The notes beneath the pieces were generated by a model. The model saw only the letters and a list, made by a program, of their open reading frames with translations. It did not search any database and was not told the DNA's origin. Source: Isoetes taiwanensis (Eukaryota > Streptophyta > Lycopodiopsida > Isoetales > Isoetaceae). Taken from it: 64,000 nt of DNA. Positions 28,252-60,575 of this stretch are shown here, in pieces (the first letter of the stretch is position 1; every line of letters starts with the position of its first letter). Both the position numbers and the translations under genes were made by a program. Location of the stretch: assembly GCA_021234155.1 (NCBI GenBank), contig JAJEKV010000011.1:7921132-7985131 (forward strand), given 5' to 3'.

Positions 28252-28327
28252 CGAAAGCTTATCACCGGGATTAAAAAACCCCGTCCTTTCGGATTTTCGA
28301 GGAAAAACCCTAGTGATAAGCCTTCGA
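28252..28327 (-). promoter_or_regulatory. ENE-like stem-loop, copy 1
   Basis: In minus-strand RNA sense: an outer stem GCUUAUCAC/GUGAUAAGC, then GGG, U5, CCUCG, an apical UCC-GAAA-GGA hairpin, CGGGG, U6, AAUCCC. Two U-tracts face each other between GC-rich helices. This is the arrangement of ENE elements that clamp poly(A) in a triple helix. ENEs are known from viral and cellular nuclear RNAs and from plant and fungal transposon RNAs. Confidence 0.75.
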
Positions 28328-28628
28328 TAAGGGGCTTGGACAAATGTAAGGATGAGAATTCGCTCCCAAAATACCCACGAATGGAGAAGTCGAAGCTGCC
28401 GCCGCTTGCCAACCTGTACCTGCACAACACCAACACAAGAACAAATGTGACAAAACAAACCTCCCAAAGTGGAGGGGCTGATCACGCATGCCACGCGACA
28501 ACAAAATAAAAACCTCTTCAAATAGAGGGGCTGGTCACGCGCGCCAGGCGACAAATACATTAAACAATTAAGGGGAGGAGGGTGAGTTTCAAAGAAAAGA
28601 GAATAGGGTACTGTTGAGAGAGAAGAGA

Positions 28629-28705
28629 GAGCGCCGATGAGACGTTGATGAAGAACCCCGCTATATTGAGCGCCGATGAGACGTTGATGAAGAACCCCGC
28701 CTAAT
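28629..28705. repeat. 39-bp direct duplication inside module A
   Basis: GCGCCGATGAGACGTTGATG and the following AAGAACCCCGC-type sequence occur twice with a 39-bp period (28631 and 28670). Other copies of the element have it once. Confidence 0.85.
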
Positions 28706-28755
28706 ATAGCGATCTCCCAGAGAAGGCATGCATGCATGCAAGACATGCATGCTCG

Positions 28756-28808
28756 CTCCTTCTAGAATGTCGATCCGAGGGCTCGGATCGATGGCATTCT
28801 AGAAGGAG
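28756..28808. other. Compound hairpin at the module junction, copy 1
   Basis: A 14-bp perfect stem, CTCCTTCTAGAATG with CATTCTAGAAGGAG, encloses a second stem, CGATCCGAG/CTCGGATCG, with ATGG on its 3' side. The module boundary falls after ATGGC (28794). The inner stem recurs at the right end of module B (29136-29155). Confidence 0.85.
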
Positions 28809-28959
28809 CTCGCATGAAAACGACAAAAACCTCCCGAATAGAAGAGAACTTCCATATCAAAACGAGATCGAGGACGAAGGTCAAAAGATTATGGCTAAAG
28901 AAGAGGCAAGGCCGAGAAAGGACATGCCACAGCATGAAAGAAACGCCAAACTGGTCAAT

Positions 28960-28990
28960 CCAAGCAAGGAGAAGACCCTCCCTTGCATGG
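28960..28990. other. Module B hairpin, copy 1
   Basis: CCAAGCAAGG and CCTTGCATGG pair around the conserved loop AGAAGACCCT. The same loop with different stems is at 34546-34576 and 45975-46007. Confidence 0.7.
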
Positions 28991-29390
28991 TTTCAAAGAA
29001 AAGAGAATAGGGTACTGCTGAGAGAGAAGAGAAAGCGCCGATGAGACGTTGATGAAGAACCCCGCCTAATATAGCGATCTCCCAGAGAAGGCATGCATGC
29101 ATGCAAGACATGCATGCTCGCTCCTTCTAGAATGTCGATCCGAGGGCTCGGATCGATGGCATACATCTCTGTGCATTCCATTCCTTCACCTATTGCCATT
29201 CAAATAGAGGAAACTCAATTTGCTCACAATCATCATAACCTACTTAATCAAAATAAACTCATGAGTAATGCTAATTACCACTTCTACCCTCGAAATCAGA
29301 CATTACTTATAGTTGATGCAATCCAAATTACAACTATTGTTGCTTCCACATTACATATAAATTTATATAGAAGAGGCCAAGGAAGATGCA

Positions 29391-30342
29391 GAATCCAAGG
29401 GTACCCAAAGAAAGGGCGATGAGGCTACCATACACCTGCTAGGGTCCAATGAAAAGAGAACCTTGACCACCTTCCAGGCCTTGAGGAGACCTTTAAGAAA
29501 AGGCGAAGCGTGAGGGAATGGCCGCAAATCCTCAAACAGAGCCCACGGCAACTGAGCCAGAATTGCTGGCTTCCTAAACACAATAGAGTGGCGTAGCGAC
29601 TGTGCCAACAGAGCCAATCCTGGGGATTGTTGCTCCTGCAACAACTGCCAGATGAATTTCGACACCAGAACCTTCGTGTGCAAGGACACATCAAGCATAC
29701 CTAAGCCCCCCGCCTCTCTGGGACGCACACACTTCCACCATGCCAGTAGCCCCCTCCTCATTTCCTCCCCAAACAAAATTGCGAATGGTGTCATCCAACT
29801 CCTTAACCACACTTTCTGGCGCAAGTATGCAGGAGGCTGCGTAAACATGAGTGCTACAGAGCACTGACTTGGCTATCAGAATCCTACCAGCCATGATGAG
29901 TTTACTCCCCCTCCACCAGTTTAGATGCTGCTTAAGATTCTGTAATGTCTCCGCCCAAATTGCCCTAGCATTAATGTCAAAGCCAAATGGTATGCCTAAC
30001 AGTTTGGCAGCTGTGTGTGGCGGTGTAAGAGCCCAGGGAAAGTAACTCAACCACGCAGGAGGAGGTTCCTCAAGTACCCACATGGCCGAGCACTTCGACC
30101 AGTTAAGCAAGCACCCTGAAGCTAAAAAAAAGGCATCCAAAATATTCTTGGCTGCCTGGAGATTGGACTCATCTGCATGAAGAAAGAGGAATGTATCATC
30201 CGCAAATTGATTGCAAACCTGTTGCGACCCATCATCCATGTGGAGACCTTGCACCACATTGTCAGCAACTGCCACCTGAAAAAGCTGCGAGAGAGCTTCT
30301 GCCACTATAGTGAACAGGAAGGGGGCTGAACAGGAAGGGGGC
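29391..30342 (-). pseudogene. LINE reverse transcriptase, inverted fragment
   Basis: The minus strand reads APFLFTIVAEALSQLF, then NQFADDTFLFL (the FADD form of the catalytic YxDD box), then LGIPFGFDI, LNWWRGSKLIMAGR, FVWGG, WWKCVRPREAGGLG and FPHASPFLKGLL. These belong to reverse-transcriptase motifs 4 to 7 and the thumb/linker of an L1-like plant LINE. One frame change near 29770 splits it. Its upstream part is absent (5' truncated). Confidence 0.88.
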
Positions 30343-31186
30343 CTCTTCCCTACACCCAGGTACTCAGCGCCGATGGATTGCTGCAGGGATAACATCCATC
30401 CGTGACTGGTATTGGGAGGGTCATATGGCGCTGTGGGAGTTTTTTAGGGATCGATTTGGCCTTCGGTGCTGGGACATTCAGACTTGGGCCAGAATTGCGA
30501 ATGCTATTCCATTGCAGTTGTCTTCTCAAGTCAATCGCGTTTGGAAGTCGCATAGTGGACTTGATGCATCTCAGTTTGTAGCATCGGCTTATGGGCTTCT
30601 AGCGCTTCAGGACACATTGCCACCTTCGGATAAGTGGTCACTTAAGCTTCCAGGGAGTAAGTGGCCCGCCATGTGGAAGTGGGCGTGGAATACATTGCCT
30701 CCTCCTAAAATCCGTACCCTTCTATGGCAAATCTTGCACCGTAGCCTCAGTGTGAATGTCCGAGTACACAGGTTCAAGCCTCAGGTAGCGGAAACATGCC
30801 CTCTATGTGGGAGGCGCCGAGAGACCATTGAGCACTGCTTTGTCCTATGCACAGAGGTAGGGGCAGCTTGGTCCTGGGTGAGAGCCCTCTTTGGGTCTTC
30901 ACTATGCAGTCAAAAGCTTCTCATGGGAGTCTTTCCTAACAGTTTGGTCGATGTGGCCACAAAGAAGCGTTCCATTTATGCAGAGCTTGGCTTCTGTGGT
31001 TGATTTGGAAAAGACGGAGAGCGAAGGTCTTCCAGAATGCAGTGCTTAGCCCTTTTCGGTTGGTTCCGATCTTGAGGCATAAGTTGTGGCAGGCTTACCA
31101 AGTCTCAAGCTTGTCTGGCACAGTTAAGCGGGAAATTTGGTCGACATTCCTACAGATTGTGAATCATGATGGGCACTTCATTTCTT
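30343..31186 (+). pseudogene. LINE ORF2 C-terminal end with zinc-binding RVT region
   Basis: The frame reads DWYWEGHMALWEFF, then KWAWNTLPPPKIRTLLWQIL, then CPLCGRRRETIEHCFVLC, the zinc-finger-like segment that follows the reverse transcriptase in plant LINEs. Then comes LWLIWKRRRAKVFQNA near the end, with one frameshift at about 31000. A poly(A) run follows at 31250. Confidence 0.88.
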
Positions 31187-31279
31187 AGCACCACACTTAT
31201 AATTGTACTTGGTCACATTCTAGTGGTTTAATATATTCCTATATTCTTCAAAAAAAAAAAAACATATAAATTTCTATAG

Positions 31280-31990
31280 GTTGCTAAAGCCTACCAATGC
31301 TTCACAATAAAATCATTTCGATAGAACTATCTCATTTCTACAGTTCATTATTTGAGACCAAATCCATAACTTTTTGCACAATGGTTCTTTATCCTTATCA
31401 ACGAATCTTAAAAGCTTTCTCTATACCATCCTTGCCCCCTCCAAGGCACATTGTTTACTCTAACCAACAAATAAAGCAACCATCTCTTCAAATTGTTGTT
31501 AAAGCACCATAACTAGTGAGAACCACTGTAGCAATGCTTATGAGAATTTTTTTCTTTAATATTGGAGGAGAAGTAAGGAATGGGAGATCTGGTGCAAATC
31601 TGATCGAGATTGCAAGTGCTCTAAACAAAGTGGTACAATTTCAAGATTTGTTATTTCCTAAAGCTCATGCAAAATAGGAAAATATCTGGCAAGACAAACG
31701 CAAATTAGCGGAAGATGGGAAGGACATAACACATGACTTATCTGATTACAGTGAAGTGAGCACAAATGCAAAAGTGATAATTGCATTATAGGAGTTATAC
31801 AAGCAGGTAGATCTAGTGAGCAAGGAAACGTGGTGGAACACACCATGGTTGTTGGAGGACTATTTTCATTCAAACTATTACAAACACCTAGATTGTTGTC
31901 AAATAGAGGATGATTAGATCTTTTAGAAGATAATGACGATCATATTCCAGATCACAAAAGGTCTTGTGACAACGAGCAACTTGATGAGGA
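31280..31990. other. AT-rich sequence, no gene recognised
   Basis: Only short frames. A decayed upstream part of the next frame may lie at 31560-31910 (fragments such as EELYKQVDLVSKETWWN on the + strand). Confidence 0.4.
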
Positions 31991-31994
31991 GTTT

Positions 31995-32381
31995 GTGGCA
32001 GAGTTGAAGATGAGGCATGTCTTTGATGAGATGCTAGATAAGGAGGAATCAGAAAGAGATATGCAAGTTGAAAGAACAATGCAGATTGATGACAAGAAGG
32101 TATACAAGGCAACCTTAGTCAGTCACCTTAACGGAAATCCTTGCCTTTCAAAGGACATGTTGAATAGATTAAGGAGTTATCTATGCTTTAATGAACAAGA
32201 CAGATATATCAATGCCGCAACATCACTTGGAATTGGCTCTAATTGTGCAGTGTACTTTGAAGTAGAAAAAGACAAAGACAAGGTTCTAAAATGTAAACAT
32301 GGAACTTATAATGGGAAGAAAACATTTCTTTGGTACTTGGGCAGAGTCTTAAGCATTAGAAGAAAGGATGGTAAAGGTTAA
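31995..32381 (+). CDS. Unidentified ORF fragment, 128 codons
   Basis: The frame encodes a hydrophilic N-terminus (MRHVFDEMLDKEESERDM), then VDDKKVYKATLVSHLNGNP-like sequence with LSKDMLNRLRSYL, and a GSNCAVYFEVEK segment near the end. The composition and an upstream broken continuation suggest a decayed transposon-encoded protein. I cannot name the family. There is no start context of note and no polyadenylation signal. Confidence 0.4.
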   Translation: MAELKMRHVFDEMLDKEESERDMQVERTMQIDDKKVYKATLVSHLNGNPCLSKDMLNRLRSYLCFNEQDRYINAATSLGIGSNCAVYFEVEKDKDKVLKCKHGTYNGKKTFLWYLGRVLSIRRKDGKG

Positions 32382-33744
32382 AAGGAAAGTAGGGAGTCTA
32401 TTGACTTGGCGAATCGTCCATTTTATCCTGTGTAGGTGAATTTAGCCTCGTATAATGAACACACGGAAGTCAGATCTTCAACTAATATCTTTGGACTCAA
32501 TTATTTCACTTGCATGCCTTAGAATATAAGTCTGGAATACAAAAGTATTATCAACATGACAATGATAGATCCCAATTTGATGATTTTGTCAAAGGGCAAC
32601 GAAAAAGATTAGTATTTTATAATTGGTTATGTTTTAGTATACTAGATTTTGATTCCTTGCTTTAGTTTATATGGAAAAGAAAGGAAAACAGAAGATTACT
32701 TGACCTTCATATCAAATTTGATGTATGGTAATTGGGTTGCCCTTGCAATGGCAGTTTCATGCCTAATAGTGATGGACTTCCTTAACAATTTTCAGCCTTA
32801 TTGCTGGCATGCAAATACAAAAGTCTTGAACTGAACAAAGGAAAGTGTTGCAAAACTGAACATTTACTAAGTTGCTGAAACTTCTTTGTGAAAGTGCGGT
32901 TGACTCTTTGGTTCAAGAGTTCTTTTGTATCCAAGTTACAAGATATTTATTGCATAACTTGTCTGGTCTATCTATAACTTTGTTTAAACTTTACCTATTT
33001 TCATTTTCGTTGTCATGTAATTGCAGATACAGTAGGTCGAGCTACATCTGGTGATGGAGCACATTAAGCTGCTAAATAGGTTGGCGTTTGCTTGATTCTA
33101 TTTGCTCTATTTATAGGTCGAAATATTTACAAGATTATAAGGCTTTGTTGTTCATAGATTTAAAGCATTACTTATCTATAGAATCATAGGTAGAAGGTCA
33201 TGCCGGATAACAGATGCTTTCGATTTTGTTAGACATTGCGATGCTAATGACATCACATATGCCTAGGACATGTGATTTTCTTGTGCATAAATTTTAAGGA
33301 CGCGGCCATAGCGAAAGGCCATTTCATCTTCAGAATACATTAGTCTTAAAGTTAATGGTATTTACTAGGTCCCATGATATTTCTGATTTGAATCAACACA
33401 TGATCAAATCATTTCAACTCTAATTAACCAGACATCTTAAGAAAGCAACTTGTCGGTCGAAGCCGTTGATTTAAGCTGATAAAGCTGTGAACTATAATGT
33501 GAGCAGGTGTGTGCAGATGAATGCGATGCATTCCGGAATGGTCTAGCAATGCTAGTATGTTTGGTTTAGTCCCAATGCTATAATGAATTGCTCTGTGCCT
33601 TAGCTACAGTAACATTTGATGCTAACCATTGAATATCATATCATTGACGGAAAAGTGTGAACATGTGATCTAATAGAAATTTATATTTTAATGCCAATTA
33701 CAATTATTTTTTTATGGCCATTGCCATTGAACAAATTTGTCTAG
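32382..33744. other. AT-rich sequence, no gene recognised
   Basis: No coding motif, repeat or RNA gene was seen. Confidence 0.4.
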
Positions 33745-33940
33745 ATTCTAGAATGGGACTCGCATGAAACCAACAAACCGCCCGATAGATAGGCTTCTCA
33801 TTCATCTCAGCAGATTTCCTACAATGGTGGATAGTGGGTAGCCGCACATATGCAAACTACCCACGAAAATAAAGGGAAAATCCAATTATATCATTTGGAC
33901 CCCAAAAATACAATGCTAACATATGTTCGGCTGGTGTACC

Positions 33941-34020
33941 TGCCGAAAGCTTATCACCGGGATTAAAAAACCCCGCCTTTTCAGGTTTTCGAGGAAAACC
34001 CTAGTGATAAACCTTCGGCA
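33941..34020 (-). promoter_or_regulatory. ENE-like stem-loop, copy 2
   Basis: In minus-strand sense: a basal stem UGCCGAA/UUCGGCA, then UUAUCAC/GUGAUAA, GGG, U4, CCUCG, an apical CCU-GAAA-AGG, CGGGG, U6, AAUCCC. The basal and apical stems are base-paired although their sequences differ from copies 1 and 3. Confidence 0.75.
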
Positions 34021-34359
34021 AGGGGCTTAGACAAACGCAAGGCAGAGAAATCGCTCCCAAAACCCACGAATGGAGAAGTCGAAACAAATGCCGCTCGCCA
34101 ACCTGTACCTGCACATCACCAACACCACAAAAACAAAACAAAACAAACCTCCCAGAGTGGAGGGGCTGATTACGCGCGTGCCACGCGACAAATATAATAA
34201 ACAAAGAAGGGGGGGAGGGTGGGTTCAAAGAGAAAGAGGTACTGCTGAGAGAGAAGAGGAAGCGCCGATGAGGAGTCGATGTAGAAACGCGTCTAAAATA
34301 GCGAACTCCCAACCAGAATGGGCATGCGCCGCCCGCATGCATGCAAAACATGCATGCTC

Positions 34360-34416
34360 GTCCCATTCTAGAATGGCGATCCGATGTCTCGGATCGATGG
34401 GATTCTAGAATGGGAC
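34360..34416. other. Compound hairpin at the module junction, copy 2
   Basis: A 15-bp perfect outer stem GTCCCATTCTAGAAT/ATTCTAGAATGGGAC encloses CGATCCGA-TGTC-TCGGATCG followed by ATGGG. The module boundary is after 34401. Confidence 0.85.
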
Positions 34417-34545
34417 TCGCATGAAACCAACAAACCGCCCGAATACCAAAGGACTTCCTTACAAACTAGGATCGAGGACGAAGGTCACAGGACGAAGGCT
34501 AAAGGTCGAAAAGGACAGCATGAAAGAAACGCCAAATTGGTCAAA

Positions 34546-34576
34546 CCAGGCAGGGAGAAGCCCCTCCCCTGCCTGG
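34546..34576. other. Module B hairpin, copy 2
   Basis: CCAGGCAGGG pairs with CCCTGCCTGG around a loop beginning AGAAGCCCCT. Confidence 0.75.
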
Positions 34577-34760
34577 AAACAATTCAAAGAGAAAGAGGTA
34601 CTGCTGAGAGAGAAGAGGAAGCGCCGATGAGGAGTCGATGTAGAAACGCGTCTAAAATAGCGAACTCCCAACCAGAATGGGCATGCGCCGCCCGCATGCA
34701 TGCAAAACATGCATGCTCGTCCCATTCTAGAATGGCGATCCGATGTCTCGGATCGATGGG

Positions 34761-35962
34761 ATAGTTTGCCAAGACAAGAAATTGAGATAATAAGTTAAAC
34801 CATTGAATGGTAAAGGAAATACAAGATGAAACATCAAATTAATAAGTTAAAGTATTGAATGTTAAACGAAATACAAGTGGAGAAATCAAATTACTAGGTT
34901 AAACATTACTAATGGGAAGTTACAAGCGCATAAAGGTATCCATTACATTAATTTAATGCATTCATATATTTATTGATCACATGACATAAGGAACTAAGAA
35001 TAGAATAGAATAGAATAGATTTTTTTATCGTCCACGGAGATCATTGGTCTATGGGACTCAAACGAAAAGATAATAGGTCTCTTAGAAAAAAGATAATAGG
35101 TCTTTTAGCAAATGTAAACAAATGTTTGTTAGAGTGTCATTGTTAGGAATGTGGTTTTGGTTTCAATTATACACTAGGAAGTGCTCACATTATGCACAGA
35201 AGACATGTATAAATACGGTCGGAGGTGCAGTTATTGCACAGAGACAAGGCCATATGGGAGAAGGTTTTCACAGTAAACAGCTGTATACAAGGGCCTTTTG
35301 GTGATTCCAAGCACGCAGATGGCATATCCCCCTTATATATGAGTGCCCCCGCACAAAATACAAAATTTTCAATAAGGAGCCAAATACCAAATCTTTCAGC
35401 CAAAATAATAGCTCGAAATTCAATACAAAGTTTACTGACAAGAGCAGACGGATTAAGATTTAATTTATATGGTATAGATGCATCATATGGCAATTCTTTC
35501 TAATTGTTACATGTAAAGTGCAGAATCCTCTCCAACAATGGATAGAGAAGAACAAAGAAACTGATTGACGACATTGATGTGAAGAGGCATTACGCTATTG
35601 GTGCATTATTTGTTTGTATCATGAAAAGCCGCAAAATATTGATACCATCAAATAGCTCTGGAAAGCATTGAGCAATTTGATCGAATGTTTAAAGCAACAA
35701 TTTCTCATTGTTTGTCAATGTTTGAAGCGCACATCTACTTTGGTTTCTCATATGTCCATATTGTAATGTGTAATTTGCTGAAATATTTGGTTTAGGTGGC
35801 ACGTCCATGTAAAAAGAAGTGGCACATTTTCAAGATGTTGGCCTCAAATTTTAGGTAGAGTAGCTGCCAATCTTTAGCATATCAAACTAGGGGTTAACTG
35901 CAATTTTGATATGTGTCACTTCTATTGTCATCCCATATTTTGTACATGGGTAAAAATGTTTT
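34761..35962. other. Intergenic, includes a LINE 3' remnant
   Basis: At 34996-35060 a GAATA microsatellite is followed by TCGTCCACGGAGATC and GGTCTATGGGAC, the minus-strand 3' terminus of a LINE related to that at 19213. The rest shows nothing recognisable. Confidence 0.5.
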
Positions 35963-38900
35963 GGCACCCAGCTTGTGCAGGGATTTGAGAGGGACCAGTG
36001 GTCTCGTTTGTTGCAGGATTTGGCCTTGGTTGAGGTCCCTGGGGACTTGTCTTTCACCTATTGTAATAGGCAGATTGGTGCGGGCCGGGCGTATGCTAGG
36101 CATGACCGGTGCTATGCTTCCCCATGCGCATTGGATGGTGTGCCCTCTTTGCGCCGGAGTAACATTCTGTCTACCTCCATTTCTCGATCATTACCCTCGT
36201 GTTTTGTCCGGGGGTGCGGTTGCCTCTCGGCCTTCTCTCGACGGTGTTCCGTTTGAACACCGACTTCTCGGCCGATGCGGATTTCGGCCCAAAGGCCGTG
36301 AGTTGTGGCTTGATACCTTTTCATCTCGGAAGGGTATGTCCGGTATGGTGACCGCATTGGCCGGGGTGGTGAAGCGTTTTGCTAAGGTCTTTGGTAGGCG
36401 TGTGTGTGCGGCAGAGGCGGCGGGGAGTTGCATAGTCTTTATCGAGGAGTTGAGAAGATTCGGGCAAAATTCTACCGATGGCATTAGGGAGAATGCGTTG
36501 TTGCAGCGTATTGTTGCTTTGGAGCAGGTTAAAGTGCATGAGGCTGCGTGTGAAGGCAGCCCTTACCCGGTTGAAGGAGGGGGATACAAGTTCGCCGGTG
36601 TTCTTTCAGTGAAGCTAGGCTAAAATGGCGATAAAAAAGATCTATGGCGCCCCTTGCTTTGCGATGGCGGACATTGGAGGATCCCGCTGAGTTGCGAGAG
36701 GTATGTGCATGCTCATTTTCGGGGTTTTTTGCGTGGCGCACTCTTCCCTATGAGCGTGAGATGCGGGAGCTTGTTTTGGGGGGTCGTTAAGCCATCTATT
36801 TTGCCTCACCAACGTGAGAGCTTGGGCGAGAGCTCTCCGAGAGGATTTAGCGGAGGCATGTATGTGCATGGCCAAGGATAAATGTCCCGGGCTGGATGGC
36901 ATCCCCTGTGGGAGTTCTTTCGGCACTTATTGGGAGTGGGCTGGTGAGTGCATTGTACCGTGTGTATCTTGAGTTCTTTGCGGTCTTCTCACATGGATAG
37001 GATCTTGAATACCGCATGCATTTCCTTGATTCCTAAGGTTAAGCAGCCTTCTACTATTAATGATTGGAGGCCTATATCCTTGTTGTCCTCTGTGTACAAG
37101 ATTATTGCGAAAGCCCTGGCCGAGAAGTTGAAGCCGGTGTTGACTTCTTCCATTAGTAAGGTGCAGTCTGGGTTTGTTCCTGGGAGGAACATTTTGACTA
37201 ATGTTGCCGCAGCTTATGAGGGCCTTTATTGGGCCAGGAGAACAAGTCAAGGCATTGCCTATCTTAAGCTTGACTTTGCCAAAGCTTATGATAGTGTCGT
37301 TTGGGAGTTCTTGTTCCGCCATGATGTTAGCGTTGGGCTGTGGTCCACGCTTTACAGAGACAGTCATGAAGCTGCATAGGTCAGCACGGGCTACGGTGGT
37401 GTGCCAGGGTGAACCCTCCGCCTTTTTCTCCTTAGGCAGAGGGGTGCGTCAGGGGTGCCCTTTGGCACCATTTTTGTTTACGATTGTGGCGGAGGCACTG
37501 TCTCAGTTGTTTTTGGCTGCAGTGGAGGAGGGGGTGGTGGATGGGCTTCGGATGCAGGATGGTAGTCAGCAGATTATTAACCAGTTCGCCGATGACACTT
37601 TTCTCTTCTTGGTGGCAGAAGAGAGGAATTTGCGGAATGTGAAGGGTTTGCTGGATACTTTCTCCTTGGCCTCAGGCATTCTTCTGAATTGGGGCAAATG
37701 CTCCGCATTATGGGCCCAGTTGACTCCGCCTCCCCCTTGTTTGGCTCTATTCCCTTGGAAGGTGCTTCCAGGTAATGTGTGTACTAAGCTGTTGGGTATT
37801 CCCTTTGGAGGGGATGTTTCCATGGGGAGGGTGTGGGATGAGATTTTGCAGGGGTTGCAGAAACACCTCAATTGGTGGAAGGGTAGCAAGTTGTCCATGG
37901 CAGGTAGGATCACTATTGCCAAGTCAGTACTTTGTAGCACTCATGTGTATACAGCATCTGCGATGTTAGCTCCTGAGGGTAAGATACAGGCTTTGGATAA
38001 GATTGTTCGAAATTTTGTGTGGGGCGGGGATGATGAAGGGGCGGTTGTTAAAGTGGCTTGGTGGAAGTGTCTCCGCCCCCGGGAGGATGGGGGCTTGGCC
38101 ATTCTGGATTTGGCACTGCATAGTAAGGTGTTGGTCTCTAAGTTTATTTGGAGCATTCTGCAGGATGGAGCATCTTCTCCTAGTGCGGCACTATTGTGGC
38201 AATCTCTTCGCCATTGTGTGGCATTTGGAAAGTCATCATTGCATGTAGAGTTGCCCCAGGCCTTTGTTGTATGGTCTCGGCCTTTCCCACATGCATCCCC
38301 TTTTCTCGGGGGTGTTGCGGGCTTTTGGGATCACGCGGCGTGTGCTCTTCCAGCTAGATTATGCCTCGGTTTATCACCACTCTTCTCCTTTCTTGTGGGT
38401 TCCTCTACCCCTGCGCGTACTTGCCCTTGGCGCCACTTGTGCATGCTCGGGACGCAGTCCCGTTGGAGGCGAGCTGCTGTGTTCACCTTGGAGGATTGGT
38501 ATTGGGATGGTCGACTAGCTTCGTGGGAGTTCTTTTCGAGCTCGCCGCCCTGAAGGACATGGACAGGGCTATCCGGGAACAAGTGGCGGGGAGTATTCCG
38601 CTACACATACCTATAGTCCCTCGAGGGGGTGGTGATGTGGTGGTGCGGGTTTGGAAGGTTCATCCGGATGTTGTATCTTCTTGTTTTGTGCGGTCTTGTT
38701 ACCGGGTGTTGGCTATTCATGACACTCCCCCCGCCGGGCAAGTGGTCTCTGCAGCTTCCGGGTTCTCGATGGCTTCGGTTTGGGCGTGGACATGGAGCTC
38801 ACTTCCCCACAGAAGGTTCAAGTGTATACGTGGCCGGTGGTGCACCGTATCGGTGAATGTCCTTGTGAGTCGGGTTTAGGCGGTGTGAGCCCTCTTTGCC

Positions 38901-39410: not shown

Positions 39411-39421
39411 AAAAATGTTTT

Positions 39422-39894
39422 CTTTTCTTCTCCAACACTCGTAGAGATAAACCTTGTTTGTCATGGTTTTTGTCACTCAAAATACACTATTATTATCGTC
39501 ATAAATGACTTTGCGCAACTAAAAAGTAGCAGTTAGTATGCGACACAAAAAAGTATGATATAAGACTATAAACCATTACAAAAGACCAAAAGACTTGCAA
39601 AAACAGCCTCAAATCATGATTGGCCATGGCTACCAAACCGATGATTCACTGGCTTTCGTTTTGATTCTAGAACTATAGACGTAAAAAATCATAAAAGAGT
39701 GAATAAAATAATGCAAGCTAAATAAAGCAAATTTACGTTGCTCGAATTCAAATGATTCAAGCAATTCCGCAGCAACTGTTTGATCCAAACCCCTGTGTCT
39801 CATTTTATTCAAAAGCCCTGCTCACATATCAATGTCACCTGGTCATTCATCATCTAATTGTAATCGCATGTGGCCCAATGAATATGGAAGTTCT
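39422..39894. other. Intergenic, nothing recognised
   Basis: AT-rich host sequence between two LINE insertions. Confidence 0.4.
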
Positions 39895-39919
39895 AACTCT
39901 CACTGGCCAATGAGCGCCA

Positions 39920-42954: not shown

Positions 42955-43033
42955 CCGCTATATTGTAAAACCGTCTCATAGGCCAGTTGGCCTCCGTGGA
43001 CATTAAAATATACTTCCTTCCTTCCTTCCTTCT
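42955..43033 (+). other. LINE 3'-terminal motif and TTCC tail
   Basis: GTCTCATAGGCC, a GGCC partner and CCTCCGTGGACATTAAAA precede the TTCC repeats. The same motif occurs at the other LINE ends at 19213, 35020, 47054 and 61797 with different microsatellite tails. Confidence 0.75.
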
Positions 43034-45089: not shown

Positions 45090-45276
45090 TTCTTGCACTG
45101 CGACTCGCATGAAACCAACAACGTTCCGATAGGCTTTTCATTCATCTCAGCAGTTTTTCTACAATGGTATAGGGTGGGTAGCTGCACATCGCAAAAATGA
45201 AAAACATAGGGAATATCCAGTTATAGCACCTGGACCCCAAATAAAATTGTGTGCTACAGATGTTGGCTAGTGTACC

Positions 45277-45357
45277 TGCCGAGAGCTTATCGCCGGGATT
45301 AAAAAACCCCGCCCTTTCGGGTTTTCGAGGAAAAACCCTAGCGATAAAATCTCGGCA
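45277..45357 (-). promoter_or_regulatory. ENE-like stem-loop, copy 3
   Basis: In minus-strand sense: a basal stem UGCCGAGA/UCUCGGCA, then UUAUCGC/GCGAUAA, GGG, U5, CCUCG, an apical CCC-GAAA-GGG, CGGGG, U6, AAUCCC. Compared with copies 1 and 2 the pair A-U has become G-C in the middle stem, with both sides changed. Confidence 0.78.
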
Positions 45358-45781
45358 AGGGGCTTGGACAACGCAGGGCTGCTAAACGTTCCCACAAAAA
45401 AACCCACGCTCCACAGAGAATACCGAAGTCGCGCATCACCCCTGGACCTGCACATCACTAACAGAAAAACCAATAGAGAAAAAACCTCGAAAAGCGAGGG
45501 TCGGGTCCGCAGCGTGCGCCACGCGACAAAAACATTTACACCCTCAAAAGCGGAGGGCTGGTCCGCAGCGTGCCACGCGACAATTATAACAATTATGAAC
45601 ATACAAATAACAATTTTAAGGGGGAAGGGTGGAAGCCATGGATATTGCTGAGAGATGAGAAAGCGCCGATGAAACGTCGATGAAGAACTCTGCAATAAGT
45701 AGCGATCCCCAACCTAATGAACGGCCTAAAAATGCATGCGATGCATGCATGCGACGCATGCAATGCATGCATGCTCGTCTC

Positions 45782-45827
45782 GTGCAAGAATCCTGATTCG
45801 CTACGCGAATCGATGACATTCTTGCAC
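45782..45827. other. Compound hairpin at the module junction, copy 3
   Basis: GTGCAAGAAT/ATTCTTGCAC (10 bp) encloses GATTCGC-TAC-GCGAATC followed by GATGAC. Confidence 0.82.
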
Positions 45828-45974
45828 TGCGACTCGCATGAGACCAACAACATCCCGATACCAGAGAACTTCAAGTACTAGATCCGAGGAGAAAGGTTGA
45901 AGATTGTCCTATGCCAGACAAAAGGGCAAAGATAGAAGAGGTTAGAAAGGATAGGAATGGCCAAGAAAGAGTAG

Positions 45975-46007
45975 CTCATGCAAGAAGAAGCCCCTCCTCC
46001 GCATGAG
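45975..46007. other. Module B hairpin, copy 3
   Basis: CTCATGC pairs with GCATGAG around a loop containing AGAAGCCCCTCC, the same loop as in copies 1 and 2. Confidence 0.7.
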
Positions 46008-46204
46008 ATCAAATAATAGAAGCCATGGATACTGCTGAGAGATGAGAAAGTGCCGATGAAACGTCGATGAAGAACTCTGCAATAAGTAGCGATCCCCAAC
46101 CTAATGAACGGCCTAAAAATGCATGCGATGCATGCATGCGACGCATGCAATGCATGCATGCTCGTCTCGTGCAAGAATCCCGATTCGCTACACGAATCGA
46201 TGAC

Positions 46205-46683
46205 ATAAGATAGAGTATTTTAAGGCAAGTTGTGAAGATACATTTTTTCAAGGGTTCCAATGACCATGCCATTTGAGAAAGCTTGGAATCCATATGGTGT
46301 TTTGGATTGTTTGATTGTTAGTCTGCAGTTAATTTGCAAACTAATTGTTGGTTTGTTTACAATTAGTTTGCAAAATATGATATTTTGGTAATGCAAGTGT
46401 CTTGAGCCCCTTTCTTTTAGGCACCTTTTTATAAGCACATAAGAAGATTAGATTGAAATATATAAAAACCACTGCGTTAGCGCATATATTTATAGGGTTA
46501 GGGTCCCTACGATTTAGGATTTAAGGTCTATTAAGATTTATCAAAATTCAATAATACATGGCAATGTGCCTTAGAATTTTTAGAGCTTATTAGGTCTATT
46601 AAAATCACAAATACATGGCACTGGTTTAGGGTTTGGGTAGATTCAAATACAATTAGCAGTAGGTCAAGTATAGAAAAAAAATT
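46205..46683. other. Intergenic, nothing recognised
   Basis: AT-rich sequence with repeated TTAGGGT/GATTTA words, no gene. Confidence 0.4.
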
Positions 46684-47053
46684 GAAGGAAGGAAGGAAGG
46701 AAGGAAGGAAGGAAGGAAGGAAGGAAGGAAGGAAGGAAGGAAGGAAGGAAGGAAGGAAGGAAGGAAGGAAGGAAGAAGGAAGGAAGGAAGGAAGGAAGGA
46801 AGGAAGGAAGGAAGGAAGGAAGGAAGGAAGGAAGGAAGGAAGGAAGGAAGGAAGGAAGGAAGGAAGGAAGGAAGGAAGGAAGGAAGGAAGGAAGGAAGGA
46901 AGGAAGGAAGGAAGGAAGGAAGGAAGGAAGGAAGGAAGGAAGGAAGGAAGGAAGGAAGGAAGGAAGGAAGGAAGGAAGGAAGGAAGGAAGGAAGGAAGGA
47001 AGGAAGGAAGGAAGGAAGGAAGGAAGGAAGGAAGGAAGGAAGGAAGGAAGGAA
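46684..47053 (+). repeat. GGAA microsatellite, about 370 bp
   Basis: About 92 GGAA units with a single interruption (GGAAGAAGG near 46773). It abuts the 3' end of a minus-strand LINE fragment, so it is that LINE's TTCC tail, greatly expanded. The long frames across it (GRKE and FLPS repeats) are artefacts. Confidence 0.95.
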
Positions 47054-52291: not shown

Positions 52292-54080
52292 ATAAATTGA
52301 TCGCCGTTTGTTTGCCACAGATCACTAGGGACACATTAAGGACACATATCAATTCGTGCATGTTGAACAAATCTCACTCCTGCCTCTCAACCAATGGCTA
52401 GCTATGGCTTCTATTCTGAACTCAAAGCAAATAAAGGTTTACAAGGTGGACTATAGAAATGCTCTATGTGATTGTTGTCACCAACAATTATATGCATCTG
52501 TACTTGCAGATGCTGCAAATCACATAAGCATCTGCCAAAGAAAACTTTGCATTAAGCTGTATCAAAATAAATCTTTGCTTTGAGTTGAGGTGATAGAACA
52601 TTTTATAATCATTGCAAGAGATTGAACTCGGTTCTGCAATACTTCCATCCTTAAATCAGCTTTGCAAGATTTCCTAATGCTAATGGATTGAATGGATGAG
52701 AATGGACCAATAACATCCAACCAAATGATCTGCAGGTATTCAGAAAAAATAGAACTTTTAGTGCAGTGCATGTGTAAATTCTGTGTGTCCTTTTTGAGAT
52801 TCTCCATTGAGTTTTAGATGTTCTCAATGTTTCAATAATTTTGTTGCAGGAAAATGCTCTCTTTAATGTTTTATTGCTTTCAATTGTTCTTTCATGGTAT
52901 TTTATTTTATGGTTTTAACTATAACCAATGGAACATATCATTAGACAACATATACGATATATGGCTGACCACTTAGAACATTCACCACTAAGAAATTGTG
53001 TGCCATTGTGTGATGTGTTGTTTGTCTTTATGATATGATTTAGCTAGAATTTTAAGTCTACCATAGCATGTGATGTTGAATGGTGGAATATTTTTACCAT
53101 GAGGATAGTCTCACGTTGGGTTAAAATTCTAGGAGAAAAAACGCCTATTCTTGTTTCAGTACATAAATTCATAATTCATTTGCACTACCTATGCAGATTC
53201 ATAAATTGAAACAGAATACAATTAATTGTCACATTAACTCAACATGTCTAGAATCATAACAACCTCAATTCATAATTCATTTGCACTACCTATCTATAGA
53301 TTCATAAATTCAAACAGAATACAATTAATTGTCACATTAACTCAACATGTCTAGAATCATAACAACCTCAGGACAATAAGATTTTTGAAAAACAATTATA
53401 CATTGCCATTTCAATACATAACTTTTTGTGCCATTTATAAATTTATAAATTCAAACAAAATACAGTTAATTTTCACATTATGGCAACTCAATATATCTAG
53501 CATCACCATTCTTGCTACCTTGAATTATAAATATATCTACAACTTCATGGTTCCCTGGGATGCAAGTATACTTATGCCTCGCATGTAAAACAAAAACTTC
53601 TACTACATATTTGAGCCTCAAGAAATAATATAGTAGTGCTATAACTTTTGTGCATATAGAGCGGAAGGTGTATTTTGGTTGTTATTGAGTACATGTATTC
53701 AACCAGAAAATATTGGACAATGCATGACTATATAACATATTATAATCATGCAGCCACACCTTTTGCCCCAAGCCTGCCTAATGCTAGTTAATTTTTTTGT
53801 TGGGGCACAATTCCCAATAAATGGATTTTTGAGGTCAAAACAAGATCAAATTTCAAAAATTTAAAGGCCCAAACAGAATCTTTTTTTTATGCTCTATCTA
53901 ATGGGAACTAATTTTGAAAAAGCTAGTCAAAAACTTTTCTGACATGGTGATGAGATGGATGACACTTGGATGGTGAGGTGGATGACTTTTGTTTGGTATC
54001 ACCTCGGCCAATTTTTGCTTTTCAAGATGTATAATAACAGATTTGCACTTTCTCTCTCTACTTTTGTTGTTAAAGAGAGA
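52292..54080. other. AT-rich sequence, no gene recognised
   Basis: Apart from the tandem repeat at 53168-53510, nothing is recognised. Confidence 0.4.
53168..53510 (+). repeat. Tandem repeat, period about 101 bp, two good units and one decayed
   Basis: TTCATAATTCATTTGCACTA begins at 53168 and 53269; the two units differ at few positions. A third, diverged unit follows to about 53510. Confidence 0.85.
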
Positions 54081-55129
54081 ATATGGTCTTAGACCTTAGG
54101 AATGGCCAAATTTGATAAATTTTCCGCATTTTCTCATGAATGGTGAATGAATGATGGGTGTATGACATGTAGTGGAATCAAGATAGTAAAGCCTAAAGAA
54201 GTGTGAATTATGCCTTGGGAAGTAAAATATCATGCCAAAAATCTTGCATTTAACAACATACCCATGTAGCTCGAGGGGTCTTCCAAATTTTGACAAAGGG
54301 GTCTTCAAGCTTTAACTCCTAGCCTTCATATATGCTCTAGTTGATTCAAATCTCTTCTTGCAATGCCCATATGATGTCCAATCAATGTCCTCTCCCGGTT
54401 CTCCATCGCAAAAGCTTTCTACAAGTCTTCAAAGATAGATGTCAAAAGAATCATGGTCCATTAGCTCATATATATATCAAGTCAAGTATTAATAAATTGT
54501 ATGATGTAGGCTATGCACATGGCTCTTCTATGCTGCGAAAATGTGGCAACATTGACAAGAGCAGGAAACAATCAATAATAATCAATGGCTGGAGGAGGCC
54601 ATCACGTCATTCTGGAGGAGGTCAACACGTCGAATGGAAGTGAACGACGTCTTGATCTTCTTGCTGATGCTGGTGAGACACATGCCCTTTCTCAGCCTCA
54701 TAGAAAGCTTTGGTTAGGGGAGGGTGCCCATAAAGTGCCCAAAAAATTAAATTATGATGGGTTTAATTCGTTTTAATCACCTATTTTAAATAAAATTTCA
54801 AAGTTTAGCTTTCAATTGGTACTAAGTATGAGTTGTTTCGACAAATCGAAAGCTCGCTATGAAGATTTTAAGTTCTATTCTTATTTTGATCTCAATAGAC
54901 CACCAAATGCCCTTCAATGGACCACTAAAAGACCTTCAATAGACCACCAAATGCTCACACTTGACTTTCATTGGCCCACAATTGCCTATTAATAGACCAT
55001 ACATTTAGCTCAATTTTTAATGCATTTTAAGATGGGCTATCGTAAGGTGGGCTATTTATGGGTAAAAAGTGGGCCATTAAAGGGCAAAAAGTGTGCCATT
55101 GAAGGGGGAGTGGGTGGAAGAGGGGCACC
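54081..55129. other. Sequence upstream of the copia remnant, no gene recognised
   Basis: A run of degenerate AGACCACCAAATGC/TGGACCACTAAA words lies at 54898-55015. The 5' LTR expected here was not recognised. Confidence 0.4.
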
Positions 55130-57970
55130 TTCCCCCATATAAATCCTTGCCAAGTCCAAGTCCTGGGGACCTAGCATGGATATGCTGATGACCACTCAAA
55201 AGATTGCTACTTTTGAGGAAATTATTGGGGATATTATTGAAATATCTCTGATGCACAGGCAACGTGCTGAGAAAGCTCGCACAAAGTAGGCTTACTTGGC
55301 CAATCGCCGAGATAAAAGCTGTTCTGAAGGTGGTCGCAAATCTAAGGGTATGCCGGAATCCTCTCAATTTCCTCGAGCTCAACATGGCCAATGCAAGATC
55401 TATCTTCAATTTGGTCACTGTGGGCTGATTGCCCACATGCCTTAAATCCCAAGCCGCCTAAGCCAACTACTGCCTCCAATTCTGAATCTGCAGGCAAACA
55501 AGCAGCACAGTTAGTTAAAGGTCTCATTCTCAAAGAGGAAAATTGTTTGGTGGAAGGTTATTTTGATTCTGATATCCAGATCATTCTTCATCTAACCTTG
55601 TTGAAGAAACCTTTTTACTTGAGGTTGCTCTTCATAACTTACTCAAGAATCATCTCATTCTCTCACAGTGGATTCTGGCTGGGTGAAGTAGTTATGGTCA
55701 AAGATTCTAATCTTCTCTCTGATTCCATTCCAGGCCGTGGTGGTGTCCAACTTGGATCTACCACAGAGGTTTCTATCCAAGTAACTGGGACTTTCCAGTT
55801 ACCCATGAATCATGGTATCTTTGCTTGTATTACTAAGGCTTTGTTTGTTCCGCAGCTTCGAGAAACATATTATCAGTTGCAAAGGCAGCGGGGCAGAATA
55901 TGAAAATCCTTTTTGACCAGCATGCTGTTTACTTTTATCAATCTGATATTGTGGTCACTAGAGTTCTTGCACGGGGATAAGAAGTATGGCGGCATGGAAT
56001 GTGGGAAGCAGATTCCAGGGACCCCGCGACCGGCGGGAGCCGGGAGCGGGTCTGGAATCTGCGACCACATTCCATGCCGCCACAACATGGCAACTGGGAG
56101 TTTTCATTGATTTTTACCTGCAGGTGACCGCTGTGCCACTTTCTATTCCGGAGGTGGAATCGTCGACCCAGTTGCTATGTTGTATATAGGGAACTTGTAT
56201 GAACTGCCACTTTCTTTGACTGCAGATTCCTGTTTATTGACTGGCTCCAGTCCTTCAACTCCAGAACTTTGGCACAGACGATTAGCTCATGTCCATTTCC
56301 GAGCTATTCTCCAGATGATTTAGAAAGTCCTTGGCTTACCTCCATTTCATGCCATTGAATTTTCCTTATGTCGAGCTTGTGTTTTGGGAAAACATCTTAG
56401 GCGTTCTTTTGTTGCCACAGGAGATCGAGCGGATCATCTTCTCGAACTTATCCATTCAGATCTCTGCGGGCCAATGGAGCTTCTGAGCCGTCAAGGAAAT
56501 AAGTATTTCATTTCCTTCATTGATGACCATAGTCGCCGAACTTCTTTGTTTTTTCTCCGAAAAAAGAGCCATGCATTGAGGCTTTTGTCATTTACAAGAG
56601 CTCAGCTGAAAATCAGTATCACGATTCCATTCAAATCCTTCGAACTGATGATGGTAGAGAATACTTGAGTGATCACTTTTATCAGATTTGTGATGAAGCA
56701 GGGATTCATCGGCAACTCATGACACACTACATTCCCCAGCAGAATGGCATTGCGGAGAAAGAACCATATCTTGTGTGAAGCTGCCAAAACTCTCTTGGTC
56801 CAAGGTCACCTTCCATCCTCCCTTTGGGGAGAAGCTTTGTCAACAGCATTACACGTTCAAAATCTGTTACCAACAGTCAAGTTCCTGGTGCCACTCCATA
56901 TGAGGTATGGAGGAGCTCCAAACCTGATATTTCACATCTCTGTTCATTTGGTTGCCAAGTTTTTGTTCATGTACCTACTGAGCTTCGTCATAAGTGGGAT
57001 GATAAGAGGCTTGAATGCCGCTTTGTGGGCTATTTTAGCTGCAGGAAAGCATATAACTGTTGGGATCCTTCCACTAACCATATTCTTGAATCTTCTGATG
57101 TTATATTCAATGAGACGTTCTTTCGTGGACACAACTCTAAAATTCATTTCATTGATGAGGGGTGACTTTGGAAGCTCACCAACTAGCCCATCCTTCTTTG
57201 GCACATGCACCCCTTGACCTGCCCTTGCTCCTCCAGATTGCCAACTTCCTTTCCATTCCTTGATTGGGAGCCTGATGTATGTCATGATCGATACACGCCC
57301 TGACATTTGCTATCCTGTAATCACCCTGACATTTGATCTGTACACTCCTGATCATTGGCACTTCGCGAAAAAGAATTTTGCAATACCTGAAAGGTACTTC
57401 CACTTCCGACATTCTTTACTCCATGGGTAACCATTCCACTCTGGTTGCATTTGTTGATACTAGCCATGGCACAAATGCTCGCAGTCATTCTACCAACAAG
57501 TTGCTGTTTTATGTTTTATGGTGGCATTGTTGGTTGGATCTCTCACAAGCAGGCCACTGTTGCCATATCCTCAACTGAAGCTGAATACCTGGCTCTATCT
57601 CATGGAGCTAGGTTGCTCATCAAGTTCTCCAATCTGCTTGCAGTCCTTCTTGGTGAATCCTTGACACCCAACACCATTTGGATGGACAACCAAAGTGCTA
57701 TCAGGATGGCAGTACACCCAGCTTATCGATCATGCACACATCACATTCCAATTCTTTACCATTATGTCAGACAACAGATCGAAGAAGGGTGCATTTGTCT
57801 TTCTTATTTACATATCCAAGATCTTCCGACAGATCTGTTTACTAAGGCACTTGGCAGAGTCAAATTTGAGCAATTTGTTGCAGCTCTTGGTATCTGTCCT
57901 CTTTCAAGGGGGAATGTTTATAAGTATAGTGTCTCTCAGATAGACACGTGTAAGGTATTTCCTTTGGTTT
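55130..57970 (+). mobile_element. Ty1/copia retrotransposon, heavily decayed
   Basis: Gag-like sequence, a degenerate zinc knuckle, protease-region sequence, the pre-integrase and integrase domains and RNase H occur in the copia order, with the reverse transcriptase mostly deleted. A polypurine tract AAGGGGGAA at 57907-57914 is followed by TG at 57915, the expected start of a 3' LTR. The LTR end and the 5' LTR could not be found. Confidence 0.82.
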
Positions 57971-57972
57971 AG
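55180..57972 (+). pseudogene. copia polyprotein remnants
   Basis: A gag-type stretch ends in a degraded zinc knuckle (CKIYLQFGHCGLIAHMP) near 55390. A pre-integrase segment (ELWHRRLAHVHFRAI) is at 56265. Integrase follows: LIHSDLCGPMEL and YFISFIDDHSRRTSL at 56445-56560, then downstream RRKNHILCEAAKTLL. The reverse-transcriptase core is missing. Only its end region appears (GSLMYVMIDTRPDICYPVIT, then RILQYLKGTS) at 57270-57400. RNase H follows with STEAEYLALSHGARLL, WMDNQSAIRMAVHP and TDLFTKALGRVKFEQFV to 57880. Frameshifts and a hairpin insertion (55987) break it. Confidence 0.85.
55987..56089. repeat. 103-bp palindrome with GC-rich loop inside the copia remnant
   Basis: GGCGGCATGGAATGTGG pairs with CACATTCCATGCCGCC and, further in, CAGATTCCAG with CTGGAATCTG. 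The loop is CCGCGACCGGCGGGAGCC-like. Its inverse resembles the loop of 48577-48678. Confidence 0.7.
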
Positions 57973-58570
57973 CCACTGTTTATGCCAAAATCATTTGCTT
58001 TGATAATGTGTCCGAAATTGGAATGGGTATTTTTATAACTTAAGGTTTCTGAAGGTTTTATGGGGGTATTTGTATGTCAAACCGTATAATGATGACGGTG
58101 GCAACTGGGATTTTCAACCCTAGAATCTTGGGCGGGCATTTTGGAGGTTTTTTTTTCTATTTTTGGTTGTTACGTTTTGGGTAGGAAGGCGACACGAGGT
58201 CCCTGTGGAGGGCGGCGTGCTTTTTAGGAAGTCGTAGCTTCAGTTGCATGTTTTTCTTTCTGTAGTTTTTTTCCAGAAGCCATAGCTTCAATTGCATAGT
58301 CATAGACGAAAACCCTGCTAGGGCTCTTCCAAGTCTGGATCCTGGTTGCACCTTCGGATACGGGTTCTACCTCCAGCAGTTGCGCATCTCTTTGACGTAG
58401 GTTAAACAGGGGCTCATGAAAGGGATCGCCTTTTGGGTTTGCCGATCTCGTATTTAGTCGGCCGGAAATGCTCGCATCCGCCTTGAGGGTTTTAGATAGT
58501 CCGTGTTTTTGCAAGGCTTGGAGCGATTGCACGGATCCTTGGCATAGCCACAAAGAAAAACTTGTTGAAG
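57915..58570 (+). other. Probable 3' LTR and flank of the copia element
   Basis: The start is set by the polypurine tract and TG. GTAGCTTCAGTTGCAT and ATAGCTTCAATTGCAT near 58228 and 58281 are a short internal repeat. No LTR end can be set without its partner. Confidence 0.35.
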
Positions 58571-58576
58571 ATTGTC

Positions 58577-58652
58577 GAGGTTGGTTCATCGGGTAAGCCA
58601 AGGGCATAGGATTCTTGTTGGGGTTCGATTCCCAGGCCCCGACCGTTGCAAG
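58577..58652 (+). repeat. tRNA-like sequence (possible SINE head)
   Basis: TGGTTCATCGGG fits the A box and GGTTCGATTCC fits the B box of a pol III promoter, at tRNA-like spacing. GTCGAGG at the start and CCCCGAC at the end pair at six of seven positions. The D-arm and T-arm are partial and no anticodon stem forms, so it is not a functional tRNA gene. A tRNA-derived SINE or old pseudogene fits. Confidence 0.45.
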
Positions 58653-58689
58653 TCGGAGTCAGATCGGGGATCCAAAATTACTTACATAA

Positions 58690-58995
58690 GAAATCATTGG
58701 TTTTGTTTTTTAGGTGCCTCCTTAGAAATCGGCCCCTCTGTGATGAATCTGAGAAGTCTGTACTCTTTGGAAATGGCAGGTTGCTCTTGTAGGCCAGAGC
58801 TATGGCGGACTTCTTTATGCATGTTGGTAAAATAAACGCATAGTGAATGAGCTATTTGCTGGAAAAGCAGAGAAAAGCTTGTTGCAGAACTTTGAAAGCC
58901 CTGGTTTGTTGCAAGTGTGAGCTGTATCAGGGATCCGGAATCAGTGATCAGAACTATTGGTTTTATTTTTTAGGTGCCTCCTTAGAAATCGGGTC
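58690..58995 (+). repeat. Short direct repeat pair, 258 bp apart
   Basis: ATTGGTTTTGTTTTTTAGGT plus GCCTCCTTAGAAATCGG at 58693 recurs at 58951 with one change. They may be ends of two copies of the unit starting at the tRNA-like sequence. Confidence 0.6.
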
Positions 58996-59501
58996 AAATA
59001 GAGGCTATTTGACCCCATCTTGACTTGCACTTGAGGGCTAGAATTGCGCCCCATGGCATATGCTGTGAAATATGCCAGCATCGGATGGTCAGAAAAAATT
59101 AATAGACACCCGAAACGATAATGCACCCGAAACGATATAAATGGTGCAAGCACTCTCATGATTATCTCTATATATTATATTACACAATAATACCAAGATA
59201 TCATTTCATCGTCTCTTGTTTGCCTCAATCCGCCTCCATTGTCGCAAACGTTCACAAATCTGACATGTGACCGTAAGATATATTAAGTAGAAAACTTGCA
59301 GATACTAAACAATGTCCCTTTTTGCCTTCTGGATTGGTTTTTGCATCTTAGTAATATACTTTAGTGAGGTGATTTTATAAGCATTGTGACACACTTGCAT
59401 GCACCCTCTTGTGTGCTGACATCTCTCACACAAACCAACACCGGAAATCTATCAGTCACGAACTACCTTTTGACTGCCAGTCCTTTAATATTGTTAACAG
59501 A
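58996..59501. other. Intergenic, nothing recognised
   Basis: A small direct repeat ACCCGAAACGAT/CACCCGAAACGAT lies at 59109-59135. No gene. Confidence 0.4.
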
Positions 59502-60575
59502 CCTTCCTAGGATGGGTTCTATGATACACCAGTGAAGTGGTGTTCTCATTGAGCTTTGTAAAATCATTGAGTACAAATTGATTCCCCTACTAGGGGTAGA
59601 AAAAATTTGAAAAAACTTAAAAAATTAAATGCCCCGAAAAGACAATCATCGAGAGCACTTCAAAACTAAAGAATAAAAGAGAAAAGGTGGTTGATCCACT
59701 GCTTGGTCTATGCGAAGATGAGAAAAACTAGCGAATCGCTTCTCATCGGGATGAAAAACCTCGTCCTTTCGAGTTTCTTAGAAAAAACCCTAATGAGAAA
59801 CAGTCACTAATGCTCTTGAAGAATGTTGGCGGCATCCAAACTAGAATAAAGACAACCTGAAGACGTTGCGCCACGCAAATTGAAGCACGACCCCCACGTA
59901 AACTGAGAACTACAACCTTACCTACAGAGTCAAGGCTGAAAAGAAAATAACCCATCAGGAAGTTCGATGCCTCAAGCAAAAATGCACACCAATGTGCCAT
60001 ATCAAACATATGTATAGTAAGACTCAGAGGCTCCAGGCCATGCCAAGAAAAGAAACAACAGCCGACCAATCGGGAACCGTCCGCAGAAATGATCGTCGCG
60101 GGAAAGAACATCCGATTAATGCTGCCTCGGAGGCTACATTGCCACGCCGAGAGAAAATGAAAAAGAATATTGTCTCAGAGGCTACAGTACGACGCCGAGG
60201 AATAATGAAATGATAAGTATGCCATAGAGGCTACAGTGCCATGCCGCGAAAAAATAAAAAATAAAAATATATGCTGCAACCCGAGAAGTATAGAAAAATA
60301 GGCAGACATGAAGATGACTAACCAACTAATAGAAAATGAAGCAACTTTGCAAATGAGCGTAACAAAAAGAAACAAAAAATCAGACGTAGATATGACAAAC
60401 AAGCTCAGATATGATAGAGGAAGAGGGGGCGGGAAACTTGTGGAGCCAAAAAATTAGCAGAATAGAAAAGAGCTCAAGAGAACGCCGATGACTGGAAAAG
60501 AAGAAGGAGCTGATATAAATAGAAGATGCAAGGTAGGACGTCCCCATCCAAGGAATGTTGGGTCCTATGATACAC
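59502..60575. mobile_element. Possible fourth member of the structured non-coding family
   Basis: It contains the ENE-like hairpin (59740-59799) and, near the right, AACGCCGATGA like the GCGCCGATGA block of the other copies. CCTAGGATGGG at 59506 has an inverse partner CCCATCCAAGG at 60543 (one mismatch). GGGTTCTATGATACACCA after the left arm recurs as GGGTCCTATGATACACCA after the right arm, as if a second head-to-tail module began there. Overall similarity to copies 1-3 is low. Confidence 0.45.
59740..59799 (-). promoter_or_regulatory. ENE-like stem-loop, diverged copy
   Basis: In minus-strand sense: UUCUCAU/AUGAGAA outer stem, GGG, U6, a CUAAGAAACUCGAAAGGACGAG-like middle with a CUCG/CGAG option, a short U5 tract, CAUCCC. 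Sequence of the outer stem differs fully from copies 1-3 but still pairs. Confidence 0.6.

Follow-up and report, generated by a model that had tools for sequence, protein, structure and literature searches.

Elements for nuclear expression (ENEs) are known from long terminal repeat (LTR) and DNA transposons, plant transposons included, and about 200 of them, mostly from plants and fungi, were reportedly identified in eukaryotic genomes by Tycowski et al. in 2016. The hairpins described here resemble these in element kind and in host class. In the Arabidopsis retrotransposon Evade (Copia93), a triplex with A20 arises in vitro at U-rich loops that are bordered by G-C pairs, and deletion of the ENE reduces RNA stability and mobility; surveyed ENEs are cited there as strongly associated with LTR retrotransposons (PMC12501189). 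We analysed a 64,000-nucleotide (nt) stretch of the Isoetes taiwanensis genome (contig JAJEKV010000011.1, forward-strand positions 7,921,132 to 7,985,131; hereafter the window, numbered from its first letter), which contains seven ENE-like hairpins: three in copies of a miniature non-coding element (E1–E3), one that is alike to these in the hairpin alone (E4), and three in the 3′ untranslated regions (UTRs) of long interspersed nuclear elements (LINEs; L1–L3). The Evade ENE likewise has facing U-rich tracts with G-C pairs at their edges in the 3′ UTR of a retroelement, but there the element is of the LTR type and has four U-tracts, whereas the hairpins of the window have one U-rich internal loop and occur in a LINE and a miniature element (PMC12501189). 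In the MALAT1 and MENbeta triple helices, the genome itself encodes the A-tract, and a tRNA-like structure comes after it (PMC10855403), whereas ARAGORN found no tRNA gene in the window (the A and B boxes of short interspersed nuclear elements, SINEs, were not modelled). We consider it probable that all seven hairpins are RNA stability elements of the ENE type, placed close to the 3′ ends of the RNAs of retroelements.

E1–E4 were found on the minus strand at the places reported in a preliminary description of this DNA, and the stem strings quoted there are present in the sequence. Including its extended stem, E1 occupies positions 28247–28331 (located as 28255–28325, with the core at 28267–28311). 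E2 lies at 33939–34022 (located as 33944–34016), E3 at 45275–45359 (located as 45280–45353, core at 45295–45339) and E4 at 59733–59806. The LINE hairpins are positioned about 95–110 nt ahead of a (TTCC)n tail. L1 (47148–47201, minus strand) precedes a tail starting at 47053 by about 95 nt, and L3 (42853–42904, plus strand) precedes a tail starting at 43014 by about 110 nt. L2 (61918–61980, minus strand) has a tail from 61816, just ahead of which AAAATAAA is found at 61818–61825.

All seven copies contain, in this order, GGG, a U-tract, an inner stem, a second U-tract and CCC, which bears out the ENE-like anatomy claimed in the preliminary description. The two U-tracts face each other in an internal loop in every copy, the 5′ tract of E2 having four U. 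The U-rich loop is flanked by the G-C pairs of GGG/CCC in seven of seven copies, and on the inner-stem side 89.3% of cells are paired. A 2×1 internal loop and a complete 7-bp outer stem are present in six copies; the exception is L2, in which five of the seven outer pairs are formed. The inner stem is broken in E4, with two of four pairs formed in the alignment register, and at one pair in L2. Both copies look degenerate. Folding z-scores are −4.4 for E1, −5.1 for E2, −3.7 for E3, −3.5 for L1 and −3.0 for L3; those of E4 are −1.7 (74 nt) and −2.8 (106 nt), and that of L2 is −2.4, or −1.7 for a piece with the 3′ arm cut. The free fold of E1 and E3 pairs part of the U-tracts.

A core pattern, defined after the copies had been seen, matched exactly four sites in the window (E1, E3, L1 and L3) and none in 100 dinucleotide shuffles; it had no match in viral contigs. 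A looser descriptor gave four rows at three sites (E1–E3), whereas 40 shuffles yielded 0.1 on average; it missed E4 and all three LINE hairpins. The structure model built from E1–E3 only, the E-values of which are rough, recovered E4 (4.9e-13), L1 (3.1e-7), L3 (6.5e-7) and L2 (0.0016). Its further match at 56959–57020 (E 0.45) lacks U-tracts and was rejected.

The hairpin of E1–E3 comprises 29 pairs, with 86 of 87 cells paired. Twenty-one pairs are invariant, three have a one-sided change, four a two-sided change, and one is broken in one copy; all four changes in the 3′ arm are compensated by the partner base. When the 3′ columns were placed at random 20,000 times, the eight both-sided comparisons observed were reached once and the eight compensated comparisons never (mean 0.59). 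In shuffles of the sequences, the observed score was reached in 5 of 500 cases. In the alignment of all seven copies, six of the seven outer pairs are altered on both sides, and 98.6% of cells are paired in the outer helix and clamp. The covariation score of this alignment was reached by none of 500 shuffles, and sliding the register lowered pairing to 37.5–65.2%. With 71 of 85 columns identical, the hairpin is also the best-conserved part of E1–E3; equally long windows at a distance beyond one window length never surpass 59. The anatomy, the compensating changes and the peak of conservation in E1–E3 are thus seen directly, as is the position of the LINE hairpins near the 3′ end. The double-sided changes reported previously are real, and the selection on RNA structure to which they were attributed is supported by the compensation and conservation tests, within the small sample that the window offers.

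An ENE-type poly(A) clamp is favoured because the hairpins have the same parts as the ENE of Evade and lie near the tail in the LINE or near the element end in E2 and E3. The GGG/CCC clamp and the inner stem would keep the two U-tracts face to face, and the poly(A) tail of the RNA itself would enter the U-rich loop and form approximately four to five U-A-U triples. The triples would shield the 3′ end of the RNA from deadenylases, and more template RNA would be left for retrotransposition. From the hairpins we infer transcription, polyadenylation, triplex formation and a benefit to mobility. In E1–E3, the hairpin is part of a single family of miniature elements, which are non-coding, have split direct repeats and probably owe their mobility to reverse transcription; in the LINE it sits in the 3′ UTR. 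That an ENE tolerates little change in its sequence is the best explanation for the core common to both.

Several observations weigh against a poly(A) clamp. No clear poly(A) signal was recognised by eye 3′ of the E hairpin. The tail of all three LINE copies is (TTCC)n instead of poly(A), so that a clamp in the LINE RNA would depend on a poly(A) tail supplied post-transcriptionally. Rfam gave nothing at gathering score, and permissive Rfam scans around E3, L3 and element E2 revealed no ENE family; weak matches to microRNA models in these scans were attributed to the chance resemblance of a long hairpin. Owing to the self-complementarity of the hairpin, the structure model also matches the antisense strand of E1–E3 (E 4e-5 to 3e-3); these matches were left uncounted. 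E4 and L2 have poorer folds than the other copies. In E2 the minimum-energy structure is a rival of the ENE fold, and the energies of the two differ by no more than about 4 kcal/mol in E1–E3. The sample of E copies is small, with three closely related sequences on which the structure itself had been drawn, and double changes can also result when the two arms of an inverted repeat correct each other in the DNA.

The preliminary description assigned the hairpin to a LINE and to unrelated non-coding elements. The first half of this statement stands, since the LINE has the same core, but E1–E3 are not unrelated elements because all three belong to one repeat family. They are three copies of one approximately 1-kb non-coding element, with BLAST pieces 66–76% identical, and share the plan A1-M-B1A2-X-B2, in which A is about 170–190 bp and B about 42 bp long. 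The elements lie on the minus strand. Element E1 (28072–29167) contains A1 at 29162–29034, B1 at about 28842–28798 and A2 at 28797–28669, and its B2 is shortened at about 28071 by (TTCC)n. Element E2 (33744–34762) contains A1 at 34762–34583, B1 at 34442–34401, A2 at 34403–34224 and B2 at 33785–33744, and element E3 (45090–46206) contains A1 at 46206–46019, B1 at 45860–45819, A2 at 45819–45632 and B2 at 45131–45090. The split direct repeats are therefore complete in E2 and E3. The (TTCC)n that the shortened B2 of E1 directly adjoins (28000–28072; also present at 46684–47053) is the same repeat as in the LINE tails.

Within an element, A1 and A2 are 98–100% identical (129/129 in E1, 180/180 in E2 and 184/188 in E3), and B1 and B2 agree in 42 of 42 positions in E2 and 39 of 42 in E3, whereas the A repeats of different elements are 80–88% identical. 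Because the A repeats are so alike inside elements that are themselves 66–76% alike, most differences among E1–E3 probably predate insertion. The compensations in the hairpin probably arose in replicating lineages, because A1 and A2 are nearly identical within and diverged between elements. In the published model of split-direct-repeat retroelements, the repeats are equalised at insertion (PMC6681497). If this holds for the class to which E1–E3 belong, most of the differences in the hairpin would date from replicating lineages rather than from decay.

The retrotransposons PAT, Ngaro and VIPER, which encode a tyrosine recombinase, have, like E1–E3, split direct repeats A1...B1 A2 B2 that are near identical within a copy (PMC4157794, PMC6681497). 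E1–E3 differ from them in their length of about 1 kb, in the long X between A2 and B2 and in having no recognisable protein. A Pfam scan of all nine frames of at least 110 amino acids that overlap E1–E3 gave no family, and so neither a reverse transcriptase nor a tyrosine recombinase; E1–E3 are therefore at most non-autonomous. No target-site duplication, as an exact direct match longer than 3 nt, was found at the ends of E2 and E3. The lack of a target-site duplication is a feature of tyrosine-recombinase retroelements. Terminal-repeat retrotransposons in miniature were considered and rejected, as E2 and E3 have no terminal direct repeats: the best direct local match between the first and last 200 nt spans 12 and 18 nt, respectively. 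A 2022 review omits DIRS elements from land plants on the ground that they were known from green algae alone (PMC9033089). In E1–E3, a land plant may carry a trace of retroelements of the tyrosine-recombinase type.

The plan of E1–E3 is symmetrical under reversal, and therefore gives no direction of transcription by itself. The hairpin is located about 185–195 nt ahead of the B2 end in E2 and E3. The preliminary description placed all copies in the same sense relative to their element. This is correct for the three LINE copies and may hold for E1–E3, in which the place and orientation of the hairpin are constant.

Double changes are also found elsewhere in E1–E3. The window at the B1–A2 junction, across which the elements carry an inverted repeat, has six double changes and three broken pairs among 32, and a hairpin in M has three double changes and one broken pair among 13. 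The element RNA may therefore be structured more widely. In E1 and E2, CTTCTCTCTCAGCAG of the A repeat is complementary to CTGCTGAGATGAATGAGAAG near the element end, around a 5-nt bulge (34242–34256 and 33794–33813 in E2, 29015–29029 and 28099–28118 in E1, minus strand), and E3 carries altered forms of both. This complementarity may possibly serve end-to-end pairing or mark a priming site. All three elements contain a T-rich stretch followed by TGTGCAGGTMCAGG, which resembles a 3′ splice site (28413–28426, 34102–34115 and 45441–45454, minus strand), and in all three GGCAGGTACAC closely follows the hairpin.

The LINE is represented in the window by a broken reverse transcriptase in two overlapping frames (36948–38553, plus strand), which need not belong to the same copy as the 3′ end with L3 (42364–43032, plus strand). 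This 3′ end can be aligned with 62445–61798, the 5′-truncated 3′ fragment that carries L2 (61798–62445, minus strand). The reverse transcriptase had 22 matches, and the four of them with an organism name are all from the liverwort Riccia sorocarpa.

Compatible with an ENE function, though rather unlikely, is the transfer of a single ENE module between the LINE and the E elements by recombination, in place of convergence. The 2×1 internal loop and the 7-bp register recur in six of seven copies around a near-identical core, and E4 resembles E1–E3 within the hairpin alone. A sequence profile of E1–E3 matches E4 over the hairpin with E 2.5e-10, whereas the flanks of E4 score no better than shuffles, the observed score being reached by 224 of 300 upstream and by 202 of 300 downstream. 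A full E-family element at E4 was therefore rejected, similarity beyond the hairpin being at shuffle level. A shared TCATCGGCG motif, together with a 34-nt repeat located near 60577 and 59531, seemed to tie E4 to the E family, which was not upheld, and the score for A-repeat similarity at E4 was reached by 39–75 of 300 shuffles. Capture of a module between E4 and E1–E3 is possible from this pattern. Little outside the core is common to the LINE and E hairpins, however: their apical parts differ in length and sequence, and the E profile detects the LINE copies with E-values of 0.004, 0.036 and 0.47, over the hairpin only. Repeated capture of one module, as previously suggested, consequently fits E4 against E1–E3, but between the LINE and E elements it is indistinguishable from convergence.

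It is doubtful, in our estimate, that land-plant miniature elements with split direct repeats and an unrelated LINE both rely on an ENE clamp, with the hairpin as a portable module that may be gated by an internal A-tract. The internal A-tract bears on a second alternative, an addition to an ENE function and not a replacement, in which the hairpin of E1–E3 is a bistable switch: the rival fold would pair the 5′ U-tract with the apical AAAA, and only competition by poly(A) would free it. AAAA is invariant in E1–E3, the energies of the two folds are similar, and the best fold of E2 is the rival one. However, the bases that changed on both sides at columns 53/62 and 55/60 are paired in the ENE fold and not in the rival one, and AAAA is absent from the LINE copies and reduced to AAA in E4. 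We regard a switch as unlikely.

It is very unlikely that the hairpin is a recognition signal for reverse transcriptase, common to the LINE and to non-coding parasites of the SINE type. The LINE hairpins do stand about 95–110 nt before the (TTCC)n tails, and E1 too runs into (TTCC)n. However, E2 and E3 finish in B2 without such a tail, no target duplication was seen by eye at the E1 join, and the sameness of A1 with A2 and of B1 with B2 fits template switching and not target-primed LINE insertion. The E profile, moreover, matches the LINE over the hairpin only, whereas a SINE would share its 3′ end with the partner LINE. The SINE–LINE partnership offered in the preliminary description is not upheld, given this limited match, the lack of a tRNA gene in the window by ARAGORN, and split direct repeats in place of a SINE plan.

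Equally improbable is that the covariation reflects DNA-level palindrome correction or a cruciform function without an RNA role, since, although the E elements hold other inverted repeats such as that at the B1–A2 junction, the non-Watson-Crick cells of the E1–E3 hairpin on the U-tract strand, on which the structure had been drawn, are 11 G.U against 1 A.C, as expected of RNA. By position, and with E4 and the LINE copies included, the numbers are 9 and 3 (p 0.15, not significant); the comparison is thus suggestive of RNA in E1–E3 only.

If the hairpins are ENE-type clamps, such clamps reach a plant LINE and a miniature split-direct-repeat element, beyond LTR and DNA transposons, and the clamp would be maintained by compensating changes while the remaining element drifts. 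The intact and degenerate copies would form a testable set of natural variants. A text search of the literature returned no paper joining ENE, triple helix and non-LTR retrotransposon; the main ENE survey was outside its scope, and absence from print is not claimed.

Other features of the window include two direct repeats of about 850 bp (60976–61808 and 62515–63368), which are 91% alike and enclose the truncated LINE fragment with L2. At 29691–31003, a LINE reverse transcriptase on the minus strand overlaps a frame with a LINE zinc-binding domain on the plus strand, as in an inverted or composite insertion. A transposase with DDE_Tnp_1_7, which we take to be of the piggyBac type, is encoded at 2555–3337 (plus strand) in a segment duplicated at 22701–25245 with 97% identity. 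An F-box protein at 3–671 (minus strand) had one match, to a protein with PF03478 and PF07734, presumably plant F-box-associated families.

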